Below are positions 6,147-22,139 of a stretch of DNA of 28,626 nucleotides, in pieces. Location: positions 1-28,626 of the IMG/VR virus record IMGVR_UViG_3300031539_000232; one strand, given 5' to 3'. This DNA is from a virus. A program made the translations under genes and the position numbers. The notes under the pieces were generated by a model. It was not told where the DNA came from, did not search any database, and was given only the letters and a program-made list of their open reading frames with translations. The first letter of the stretch is position 1. Each line of letters opens with the position of its first letter.

Positions 6147-6223
6147 TGGCGCTTCGGGTGGGAATCGAACCCACGACGCAGGATTTTAGAGATCCCCGCT
6201 CTGTGCCACTGAGCTACCGAAGC
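6147..6223 (-). tRNA. Amber-suppressor tRNA, anticodon CUA
   Basis: A complete cloverleaf can be drawn. Acceptor stem GCTTCGG/CCGAAGC; D stem GCTC/GAGC with a 9-base loop; anticodon stem GGGAT/ATCCT (one G-U pair) with loop CTCTAAA; variable region GCGTC; T stem GTGGG/CCCAC with loop TTCGATT; discriminator G; and CCA encoded in the DNA. Standard numbering puts C34-U35-A36 as the anticodon (plus-strand positions 6187-6189 read tag), which pairs with UAG. The short variable region excludes class II Leu/Ser/Tyr types. The G at position 73 is compatible with charging by GlnRS, TrpRS and some others; identity is not decided. It is the only tRNA seen in the window. Confidence 0.9.
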
Positions 6224-6624: not shown

Positions 6625-6653
6625 ATTATAAACGATATTGACAACCTTGTAAA
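6625..6653 (-). promoter_or_regulatory. Sigma70-type promoter of the MazG-like gene and tRNA
   Basis: TTTACA (6653-6648), a 17-base spacer and a perfect TATAAT (6630-6625) on the minus strand. Transcription would begin near 6618 and run through the MazG-like gene into the tRNA and the small genes beyond. Confidence 0.75.
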
Positions 6654-6654
6654 G

Positions 6655-6662
6655 GATAAATA
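6655..6662 (+). promoter_or_regulatory. Late promoter motif GATAAATA
   Basis: GATAAATA on the plus strand, 17 bases before the ATG at 6680. It directly abuts the divergent early promoter of the MazG-like gene. Confidence 0.5.
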
Positions 6663-6679
6663 TAATAAGAACAACACTT

Positions 6680-15574: not shown

Positions 15575-15582
15575 TATAAATA
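15575..15582 (+). promoter_or_regulatory. Late promoter TATAAATA upstream of gp55
   Basis: An exact late consensus 30 bases before the gp55 ATG, and 13 bases downstream of the early -10 box. The gene for the late sigma factor would thus respond to its own product. Confidence 0.65.
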
Positions 15583-15612
15583 GAGGGTATATAACAATAA
15601 TAAGGAATCCCG

Positions 15613-16122
15613 ATGATACAGAAGTCCCAAGTTACTGAAGATAATATCCCAACCCCTAAGAAAAAAGAGGTTGTAAAAAAGAATGAACCGAAACCCAAGA
15701 AGAAAAAGAACTATCTGAATAATAAAGATATGATGGCCCAACTTCGGTTGTGTCATGAACAAGATAAAATGACAGATGAGTTCGCTAAGATGATTATGCT
15801 TCTTGCTGAACGGTATGGTAGTAGATATGAATACTCTGATTACAGTCCTCACATTGAAGATATGAAAGCGGTTGCTGTTACAAATGTCGTACGGGCTTGG
15901 CGTAGCTTCGATCTGGAAAGATACAATAATCCATTTGCGTACTTCACACAGGCCATAAAACATACCTTCTGGCAATATGTTTCACAAGAAAAGAAACATA
16001 GATTAAACCGAGATACCATCCTCATTAGTATGGGGGAGTTGCCTTCTGATACTTACATGGAAGATTATCGAAAAGAGCTGCTTGAATTAAAGAACGAAGC
16101 AAAGGGTACCGGTGGCGAATAA
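15613..16122 (+). CDS. 55: Late-transcription sigma factor (gp55-like)
   Basis: 169 residues (T4 gp55 is 185). After a lysine-rich N-terminus comes KNYLNNKDMMAQLRLCHEQD (36-55), characteristic of gp55. The segment DMKAVAVTNVVRAWRSFDLERYNNPFAYFTQAIKHTFWQYV (about 82-122) resembles sigma70 region 2, which binds the RNA polymerase clamp and the -10 element. gp55 directs polymerase to TATAAATA late promoters, and such motifs are frequent upstream of structural genes in this window. Start chosen for the AAGGAA site about 8 bases upstream. It leads an operon with gp47 and gp46. Confidence 0.85.
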   Translation: MIQKSQVTEDNIPTPKKKEVVKKNEPKPKKKKNYLNNKDMMAQLRLCHEQDKMTDEFAKMIMLLAERYGSRYEYSDYSPHIEDMKAVAVTNVVRAWRSFDLERYNNPFAYFTQAIKHTFWQYVSQEKKHRLNRDTILISMGELPSDTYMEDYRKELLELKNEAKGTGGE

Positions 16123-19423: not shown

Positions 19424-21064
19424 TTACTCTATTACACTAAAGGCATCTTTCCACCATTCAGGTGTCAATCCCTTAAATTGTGCCCATAGCTTAGAAAATG
19501 CAGAATCTAGGATATAAGTATTACCCCAATCATCATGGCTTCTCACGATACGACCCCCACCCTGAATGATACCAGTCATCGCCTGACGCTGGTACCACTC
19601 ATTAGAGAGGTCTAGGCGGCGTTTTACCCACTCATCCCCTAGGTAGGGGTAGGGTACCTTCACAAAGATCGCAAATCGAGCTGTGTTGCCTGTGAGGTCC
19701 AACCCCTCAGTACATGAAGGTGATATTAATATGGTTGGCACCTTACCTTTATTATCAGTGAACTCTGCAATGCAATCGTCCCGGCTACCGTTGTCTTCGG
19801 GATCATGTGTAATTATATTGTGACTGACACGCCCCTGAAGCTCACCAATTAACCACTTAGCAATATTAAAACTACCAGTGTGAATAATACCAGACTTTTC
19901 TTTGTGGGCATCCATCAACATAATTACCTTATCCACCATCTTAGTACGCAATGGGGCATTTACCGGTTTATCCCAACCATATGTCATTTTTGACGTAGGT
20001 ATGAAATATACAGGGCGGTTTTCTTTTTTAAACTCAGATGGTAATGAGATAGTGGCGGATTCATCTACTGGGATACCCAAGTCTGTTGCATATGACTTGA
20101 AGTTCAAAATAGTAGATGACATGAACAAGAAGCGGTTAGCTTTAGGTTCCAATATATGGTGAAAGAGATTAGCCCCGAAAATTTCCTTGAACTGAAACAT
20201 ATTCTTATCTACCATCAACACGTAAAATTCTTCCACAGTCGCAAAGTTTTTATTCACCAAATTCCTTACCAATACCCTATGCCGTGTGATATCTTTAAAA
20301 TCGTTTTTAGTTCTTATCTCAGATGGTAACAATGAACCCGGGGAAAATTCATATTTGTTATCAATTTCCTTAACCATAATTTCTAGGTCACCGAAGCGAT
20401 CACAAACTGCCGGGTAGTATGTTTCAATCAACCAGTCATGTGCTTCTTTCAGACTAGATGGGCGAAAGAATGACAATTTCATGGAATCACATCGCCTAGT
20501 ATTAACATTAACCGCTCTGTGACTAACTAAGTTATTTTCCAAAGTATGACACTCATCAAATACCATCAGATCTTTAACTGGAAAATCCATTGATGTACCC
20601 GGGAATAGTTCTGAATACAACAATCCCAGTTTGTAGCTCAATGCAACATGTGGTGTATTTGCTATTCGCTGGAATGCCTCTTTAGATGGACATGTGGGAC
20701 ATGCCGGTTTGATATCATTTCCTATATCACAATTCAGGCCGAGTTTGGTAGTACACATATAATTGGCCTTTCCATATACAGCTATTAGGTTTTGGTCTAT
20801 AAATGAATCTTCATATTGTTTTTGTAATATACGCTGTGGGGTTAGGATATATGAACTTCCAAATGTTTTGTTACCTAGGAAACTCGCATATGATATAGCT
20901 ATAGGTGATTTACCCCCACCCACTGGTACCTGAAGGAATATGTATTTCGCCTTAGCTGGTAATTCAGCCATCCAATCTAATGTAGTTATTTGTGTTTCTC
21001 TGGGTGGGTCGTTAGGCATTGCCCAATGATCCCATATATTTCTAGCTGGTATTATATCACTCAT
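19424..21064 (-). CDS. XPD/DinG-type Fe-S DNA helicase
   Basis: 546 residues, superfamily 2 helicase. Walker A is VPVGGGKSPIA (Gly49-Ser53). Four Cys (104, 112, 122, 125) between motifs I and II match the 4Fe-4S pocket of XPD/DinG helicases. Motif II is DECH (170-173). The C-terminal half has LISPSCTEGLDL and the motif VI block IIQGGGRIVRSHDDWG. Such enzymes unwind DNA 5' to 3' and act in repair and replication. In a phage it could serve replication restart or recombination beside gp46/47; that role is inferred. Expression is probably early, from TTGACC-N17-TATATT. The ribosome-binding site GGAG is about 10 bases from the ATG. Confidence 0.85.
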   Translation of the reverse strand: MSDIIPARNIWDHWAMPNDPPRETQITTLDWMAELPAKAKYIFLQVPVGGGKSPIAISYASFLGNKTFGSSYILTPQRILQKQYEDSFIDQNLIAVYGKANYMCTTKLGLNCDIGNDIKPACPTCPSKEAFQRIANTPHVALSYKLGLLYSELFPGTSMDFPVKDLMVFDECHTLENNLVSHRAVNVNTRRCDSMKLSFFRPSSLKEAHDWLIETYYPAVCDRFGDLEIMVKEIDNKYEFSPGSLLPSEIRTKNDFKDITRHRVLVRNLVNKNFATVEEFYVLMVDKNMFQFKEIFGANLFHHILEPKANRFLFMSSTILNFKSYATDLGIPVDESATISLPSEFKKENRPVYFIPTSKMTYGWDKPVNAPLRTKMVDKVIMLMDAHKEKSGIIHTGSFNIAKWLIGELQGRVSHNIITHDPEDNGSRDDCIAEFTDNKGKVPTILISPSCTEGLDLTGNTARFAIFVKVPYPYLGDEWVKRRLDLSNEWYQRQAMTGIIQGGGRIVRSHDDWGNTYILDSAFSKLWAQFKGLTPEWWKDAFSVIE

Positions 21065-21088: not shown

Positions 21089-21117
21089 AATATAGCAGAC
21101 CTTCTACCAAAGGTCAA
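21089..21117 (-). promoter_or_regulatory. Sigma70 promoter of the helicase, extended -10
   Basis: TTGACC (21117-21112), a 17-base spacer and TATATT (21094-21089) on the minus strand, preceded by TGC (extended -10). Confidence 0.75.
21098..21115. repeat. Inverted repeat inside the helicase promoter spacer
   Basis: GACCTT-CTACCA-AAGGTC, a perfect 6-bp inverted repeat covering the end of the -35 box and most of the spacer. It could be an operator for a repressor. Confidence 0.4.
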
Positions 21118-21167
21118 TGTAAATTTTTTTGACAACTATTAAAACGGTATAAAATAACTTATAAGTA

Positions 21168-21313
21168 AATAAAAAAACACAATTTAACAACCTTTGGAAC
21201 AAAGGTTGTTAAATTCACCTTAACAAATCCGTGTACACGGATTAGGTAAGGTGAATCAGAGAGGGTAAATAGAGGGAGGTTAAGGAATGGAACTACAAAG
21301 ACCTTAATGGTTT
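21168..21313 (-). ncRNA. Candidate phage small RNA with own promoter and terminator
   Basis: A stretch of about 145 bases bounded by a consensus sigma70 promoter (21320-21348) and a perfect intrinsic terminator (21181-21215), all on the minus strand. It contains no ATG-started frame of note. Its 5' part is a C/U-rich region with CCTTAACCTCCCTC, complementary to Shine-Dalgarno sequences (AGGAGG/GGGAGG). A second hairpin follows at 21216-21253: CACCTTA/TAAGGTG outer stem, AATCCGTG/CACGGATT inner stem, separated by a 3-by-3 internal loop. The layout (single-stranded C-rich seed, hairpin, terminator hairpin plus U tract) is that of a regulatory small RNA. Function is unknown. Start and end positions are predicted. 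Confidence 0.7.
21181..21215 (-). terminator. Perfect intrinsic terminator of the small RNA
   Basis: A 16-bp perfect stem (AATTTAACAACCTTTG and its complement) with a 3-base loop. On the minus strand it is followed by GTGTTTTTTTATTT. On the plus strand there is no T tract, so it works in the minus direction. Confidence 0.88.
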
Positions 21314-21319
21314 AAAAGC

Positions 21320-21348
21320 ATTATAACGGTTGTCCAAAAATTTGTCAA
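21320..21348 (-). promoter_or_regulatory. Consensus sigma70 promoter of the small RNA
   Basis: TTGACA (21348-21343), a 17-base spacer and TATAAT (21325-21320) on the minus strand: both hexamers perfect with optimal spacing. It points into the intergenic region, away from the RuvC-like gene that ends just upstream at 21393. Confidence 0.88.
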
Positions 21349-21392: not shown

Positions 21393-22139
21393 TTATTCTC
21401 GTAATTGATCAATTATTGTACTAAATTCATTGTCCGTATCACATACCTGTGAAGCACTATGGTACATGACTACACTATCATTTATATCTTCTAGCGGCTT
21501 AGGAACCTTCTTCAACCCAAATACCACTTCTTGTTGATCCCGTAAGAAATTAACCCAGTCTGTTTGAATCGAATCATTCTCTGTAAGTGCCTTGTAGATA
21601 TCGTGCTTCTTAAAACTACCACCGGCTACACCTTCGTTGTTACGATATTCAACCTTTATAACTTTCTTACCTTTATAAATTGGATCATATGTTAATTTAG
21701 CTGCCATCTTTTTTACAGTTGATGGTGAAAGTACCACAAGCTCTGTATTAGATCTGGTAAATAAGTTCCGCCTAACAAGAGTACCGAATGTGACTAGGTC
21801 AATCAACGGACCAGCATTAGATGAAAAACTGTAACCCTCTATAAGAATAATGGTACTATACCCTGAATCGCAGTTGGTGTCAATTAATTTTCTGATAAGG
21901 TTAGCAGTACGTTGAAATGTTTCTAGCTTATTGATTTCTAATTGTGCATAATTTTTTTCATTGTTATAGCTCGTATCAATGGTAGTTATATCACAAAATT
22001 CAGAGGCACGTTCGAACCACCCATTGAGAGCTTGTTTTTTAGTCAATGATATACTGGCAGCAACTATGGAAAAGAGCTTTCCATTAATAGTGAGTGCCGT
22101 GCTTATGAGTGAGGGGTCTATTGTAATTATGTTAATCAT
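21393..22139 (-). CDS. RuvC-like Holliday-junction resolvase/nuclease
   Basis: 248 residues, RNase H-like fold. IITIDPSLISTAL (4-16) supplies Asp8, ILIEGYSFSSNAGPLIDL (98-115) supplies Glu101, and LEDINDSVVM (216-225) supplies the C-terminal acidic pair (Asp218, Asp221). This spacing is that of RuvC-type crossover-junction endonucleases. T4 itself uses the unrelated endonuclease VII (gp49), so this would be a functional replacement for debranching before packaging. CATAAATA ends 4 bases before the ATG and there is no Shine-Dalgarno site; since Asp8 needs this N-terminus, the start is fixed and the message is probably leaderless and late. Confidence 0.75.
   Translation of the reverse strand: MINIITIDPSLISTALTINGKLFSIVAASISLTKKQALNGWFERASEFCDITTIDTSYNNEKNYAQLEINKLETFQRTANLIRKLIDTNCDSGYSTIILIEGYSFSSNAGPLIDLVTFGTLVRRNLFTRSNTELVVLSPSTVKKMAAKLTYDPIYKGKKVIKVEYRNNEGVAGGSFKKHDIYKALTENDSIQTDWVNFLRDQQEVVFGLKKVPKPLEDINDSVVMYHSASQVCDTDNEFSTIIDQLRE

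Follow-up and report, generated by a model that had tools for sequence, protein, structure and literature searches.

Lytic jumbo phages have, to our knowledge, yielded few known small RNAs, and phage genomes mostly lack annotation of their RNA genes. The closest described systems are the rhizobial small RNAs alpha-r14/NfeR1, which combine variable stems with an unpaired, C/U-rich anti-Shine-Dalgarno sequence that blocks ribosome binding sites, each of their three hairpins carrying an ultraconserved CCUCCUCCC among its unpaired bases (PMC10746234). A review of phage-encoded small RNAs does not mention jumbo phages (PMC12197685). At the other end of the size range, GOLLD and ROOL are large ornate phage RNAs of unknown function (PMC12286853).

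The DNA analysed here over its whole length (the window) comprises the 28,626 bases of one virus record and represents part of the genome of an uncultured jumbo phage. Its gene content (genes for a T4-like portal, SbcC/SbcD, a helicase and the baseplate) and its protein matches put it close to three cultured phages, Xanthomonas phage XacN1 and Stenotrophomonas phages RAS14 and CM1 (43-47% identity for the helicase and 43-46% for the RuvC-like protein). The RuvC-like protein has weaker matches in huge uncultured phages as well. Scans of bacterial and archaeal genomes with the helicase returned distant DinG-like proteins and nothing closer, and cultured phages showed no DNA similarity to the window region. 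The locus lies on the minus strand between a RuvC-like resolvase gene upstream (21393..22139; phrog_159, 2e-8) and a DinG-like helicase gene downstream (19424..21064; phrog_2488, 5e-98; Pfam Helicase_C_2, 4e-19). Elsewhere in the window, a gp55-like late sigma factor gene (15613..16122, plus strand; phrog_234, 9e-24) is the first gene before sbcD and sbcC. The sole Rfam match in the window is an amber-reading tRNA with a CUA anticodon (6147-6223, minus strand), and TAG is the stop of only 2 among the window ORFs of 90 aa or more. Recoding of TAG in the window was rejected, as no long gene was interrupted by TAG or lengthened by reading it through.

A preliminary description of this DNA had proposed an undescribed small RNA between the two genes, with a perfect sigma70 promoter (strand not given), a perfect 16-bp terminator with a U tract, an inner hairpin and an unpaired C/U-rich 5' part carrying CCUCC. 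It had also named an Rfam search, RNA folding, conservation of promoter and terminator in related phages, and target prediction as checks. Each of these elements was found, all on the minus strand. The promoter (21348-21320) is a 12/12 match to sigma70, its -35 box TTGACA (21343..21348) and -10 box TATAAT (21320..21325) being separated by a 17-nt spacer. The predicted transcript of ~143 nt (21171..21313) takes its start from the -10 box and its end from the U tract. Its 5' part includes a pyrimidine-rich, G-free stretch of 35 nt (21258..21292), mostly unpaired in the predicted fold, whose pyrimidine content is equalled by only 3.5e-5 of the window 35-mers; CCUCC, the proposed anti-Shine-Dalgarno core, lies inside it (21275..21279). 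The 44-nt inner hairpin (21213..21256) includes the perfect 18-nt palindrome AATCCGTGTACACGGATT. It is followed by the stem of an intrinsic terminator (21181..21215; 16 perfect pairs, a loop of 3, then GTG) and a tract of seven U (21171-21177). This terminator is not ideal, because the U tract begins 3 nt past the stem and only 4 of the stem pairs are G-C.

Under a second-order Markov model, 0.04 perfect sigma70 promoters are expected per window, and 2 were seen. The other match (6638-6666, plus strand) is inside coding sequence and has no terminator. No perfect stem of at least 14 bp is expected under the same model, and the terminator stem is the only one in the window of at least 10 bp. The small RNA is predicted to fold far more stably than its shuffled versions (-39.8 vs -19.3 +/- 3.0; z -6.75). 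The region is noncoding, as had been described, with no ORF of 40 aa and no ATG seen by eye. Searches against Rfam 15 at the gathering threshold matched the tRNA only in the window, and a relaxed search gave chance-level hits, so that no family was found for the small RNA at either threshold. What marks an independent small-RNA gene, its own promoter and an intrinsic terminator without a coding frame, is present at this locus.

The closest layout was found in L004 and L005, two contigs that are identical in sequence here and count as one independent phage. Their helicase and RuvC-like proteins are 69% and 53% identical to those of the window. Nothing else in the RuvC-helicase gap is as well conserved as the promoter: together with the RNA start region, it is identical at 32/40 bases (80%) in L004, against a neutral level at fourfold sites of 38% (helicase) and 47% (RuvC). 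The -35 box is conserved in L004, which has TAAAAT as its -10 box with a 16-nt spacer. The RNA body (~40% identity) and the 5' part of the small RNA (38%) are both at the neutral level. The L004 RNA has a pyrimidine-rich, G-poor 5' part (7-8% G in both RNAs), two strong hairpins and a U-rich tail (z -4.5); the sequences and loops of these hairpins are unrelated to those of the window RNA, and thus no protein-binding motif is evident. From this comparison, what persists is position, promoter, architecture and base composition, but not sequence. Pattern scans for the small-RNA promoter and the post-terminator block returned L004/L005 only, so the conservation of promoter and terminator looked for in related phages was seen in one independent phage.

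Downstream of the terminator, the helicase has a separate promoter, TTGACC-17-TATATT (21089..21117, minus strand), whose L004 counterpart is TTGACT-17-TATATT, and such a promoter, at about -55, is found in many relatives as well as in the window and L004. The AT-rich block between the terminator and this promoter (21118..21180, minus strand) is 76% identical to L004 (48/63 bases) and better conserved than the small RNA. An independent small-RNA gene is supported because L004/L005 keep the layout and the helicase promoter is separate. The original proposal of an undescribed gene, with promoter and terminator of its own, no Rfam match and a layout kept in a relative, therefore stands, on what the sequence shows of its promoter and terminator, predicted structure, synteny and layout conservation.

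Alignment-based scans turned up 41 helicase and 58 RuvC loci, and many relatives have a gap of 600-900 nt before the helicase without a long same-strand gene. In 13 distant XacN1-like relatives, the same spot and strand upstream of the helicase hold a large structured RNA, here called F1 (L104:4748-5164, L031:290-716, L067:5699-6184, L022:3233-3755 and nine more). F1 exceeds 400 nt, has a multi-helix fold with a G-run near its 3' end and shares the conserved blocks GGCUGCA, AAGGUC, UUUCGGAAUUAA, GACUYACUAAAAC and AAAAAUGGGGGAGGG. Its members matched over a 169-position core, and several have a TTGACA promoter close upstream. Covariation was assessed in A5, a core alignment of 10 sequences, against a structure that RNAalifold had predicted from that same alignment. 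In A5, 85.5% of cells pair, 27/38 pairs are changed on both sides (shuffles, 18.4 +/- 2.1) and the covariation score is 0.547, compared with 0.246 for shuffles and 0.206 for the best slid version. The covariance model R1 found three members unused in its building (L038, L039 and L050; E below 1e-14), all at the locus. A relaxed Rfam search of one F1 locus gave chance-level hits only, a search at the gathering threshold of the window and 23 relatives gave nothing but the window tRNA, and cultured phages showed no DNA similarity to F1. By these comparisons, F1 is a covarying RNA family absent from Rfam and first seen here. R1 gave no significant hit in the window, L004, L006, L009, L021, L023, XacN1 or RAS14, and its best score in an unfiltered search of the window gap was 6.6 bits, which is not significant. 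With nhmmer and the covariance model both negative, homology of the small RNA to F1 was not detectable.

Other noncoding forms occur at the locus. XacN1 (L013:4940-5264, minus strand) and RAS14 (L014:5930-6260, plus strand) have in common a noncoding stretch, 70% identical over ~290 nt and unannotated in both, in which compensatory stem changes can be seen by eye in the alignment. In L026 and L049, 12/12 sigma70 promoters are followed by short, AT-rich, hairpin-rich noncoding stretches before the helicase, unrelated in sequence to the window RNA. Further long noncoding gaps lie at the locus in L009, L021, L023, L036, L037 and L047. Those of L009, L021 and L023 all have a hairpin followed by a AAAACAAAACUG-like sequence, while those of L037 and L047 form a third kind (69% over 851 nt of upstream sequence). 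The L006, L009, L021 and L023 gaps aligned too weakly to give a common fold.

Related phages place several unrelated-looking kinds of noncoding stretch here, and in XacN1-like phages this locus seems to be a noncoding-RNA site that changes fast. The short form may be derived, because the nearest relatives of the window by protein (L006, L009 and L021) have long gaps. It is possible, though doubtful, that XacN1-like jumbo phages reserve the RuvC-like/DinG-like gap for noncoding RNA, and that the undescribed large structured RNA of many distant members was replaced there in the window lineage by a compact, terminator-ended RNA with the same role in the infection cycle. Judged from position alone, the short and the large RNAs may share a role. 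One suggestion from the comparison is that the location and transcription signals of a noncoding-RNA gene can persist even when its size and sequence become unrecognizable.

The reading of CCUCC as an anti-Shine-Dalgarno seed was not supported. CCUCC is absent from the L004 RNA, which has CUUCC, CCUCU and CUCUCC and a C/U-rich stretch, and the identity of the 5' part is neutral. Pairing of the 5' part with window start regions (-14.6 kcal/mol vs -13.6 +/- 0.7 for shuffled RNAs) showed no significant excess and was not clearly better than pairing with random 55-mers. The Shine-Dalgarno match cited at the protease gene is present (AAGGAGGT), but it is the only such site in the window. The anti-Shine-Dalgarno reading of the small RNA is thus a weak one. 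Target prediction over the window 5' regions gave no significant overall excess and one candidate, just before the gp55-like gene (15577..15608, plus strand). There, TAAATAGAGGG (15577-15587) is complementary to 11 bases of the small RNA (21266-21276) and TAAGGAAT (15601-15608) to 8 bases (21281-21288). The predicted pairing of this start region, -30.3 kcal/mol (z -4.2), was matched by 9/400 dinucleotide shuffles (~2%) over 33 start regions. A conserved gp55 target was rejected, as the orthologous L004 start region lacks the complementary bases. The gp55-like late sigma gene is a suggestive candidate target, a lead and not a result.

Our tentative explanation, held at somewhat below even odds, is an independent, sigma70-transcribed noncoding-RNA gene that acts in trans by base pairing, with the gp55-like start as its best candidate target in the window. 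Host sigma70 RNA polymerase would transcribe the RNA from its own strong promoter, and the intrinsic terminator would end it ahead of the separately promoted helicase gene. The product would be an RNA of roughly 140 nt whose long 5' part is unpaired and rich in pyrimidines and whose 3' part forms two stable hairpins. The pyrimidine-rich part would most likely pair in trans with phage or host messages, at 5' regions rich in purines; pairing at the gp55-like start would hold back late functions early in infection. Transcription, base-pairing action, target and timing are what we infer, and the small RNA would time the switch to late genes if that target is real. Base pairing is our first choice, because the pyrimidine-rich part is unpaired and compositionally kept, with action through the hairpins close behind. 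Against it, the putative seed is not conserved in L004, which would be unusual for a seed, and the hairpins could act instead. Moreover, the exact layout is common to only two independent genomes.

Action through the folded part, as a compact replacement for the large RNA that binds a protein of phage or host or has a structural role, is rather unlikely but comes next. The larger, strongly covarying RNA of 13 relatives at the same locus fits it, as do the short forms, whose hairpins are stable (z -6.75 and -4.5) and whose 5' sequence can vary freely. However, the covariance model misses the short RNA even with filters off (best 6.6 bits), and the unrelated hairpins and loops of window and L004 reveal no motif for a protein to bind. 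A G-free C/U stretch could instead serve as a decoy or sponge that captures an RNA-binding host protein, for instance Rho or S1, or competing host small RNAs. A protein that reads composition would explain why the window and L004 share a pyrimidine-rich, G-poor composition and not a sequence, but these partners are candidates only, and we consider such a decoy improbable. Intergenic terminators are common, and the neutral RNA body would be expected if the locus were an ordinary end-of-operon RuvC terminator beside a fortuitous promoter, with no functional RNA. Against it, no other part of the gap is as well conserved as the promoter (32/40 vs 38% neutral), which lies upstream of the terminator, and L026 and L049 too have 12/12 promoters here; we rate this reading slightly less probable than the decoy. 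The least likely reading is that the unit is transcribed as a leader or attenuator for the helicase gene, with which the shared strand and the terminator upstream of the helicase would agree. It is disfavoured because the helicase has a separate conserved promoter (at about -55 in the window, L004 and many relatives), and no alternative anti-terminator fold was seen.

Like alpha-r14/NfeR1, the window small RNA is noncoding and has an unpaired C/U-rich part; unlike them, it has a single CCUCC in a linear 5' stretch that is not conserved, and its hairpins lack the ultraconserved CCUCCUCCC. It resembles phage-encoded small RNAs generally (PMC12197685) in being a short, predicted phage transcript that encodes no protein. 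With F1 it shares its place upstream of the helicase on the same strand, but F1 is more than 400 nt long, with conserved blocks and a multi-helix fold, whereas the window RNA is short and is missed by the F1 covariance model. GOLLD and ROOL had no Rfam match in the window or the relatives scanned; unlike them, the locus does not lie in a tRNA island, and the window RNA is far smaller. It is F1 that resembles GOLLD and ROOL in kind, as a large ornate phage RNA.
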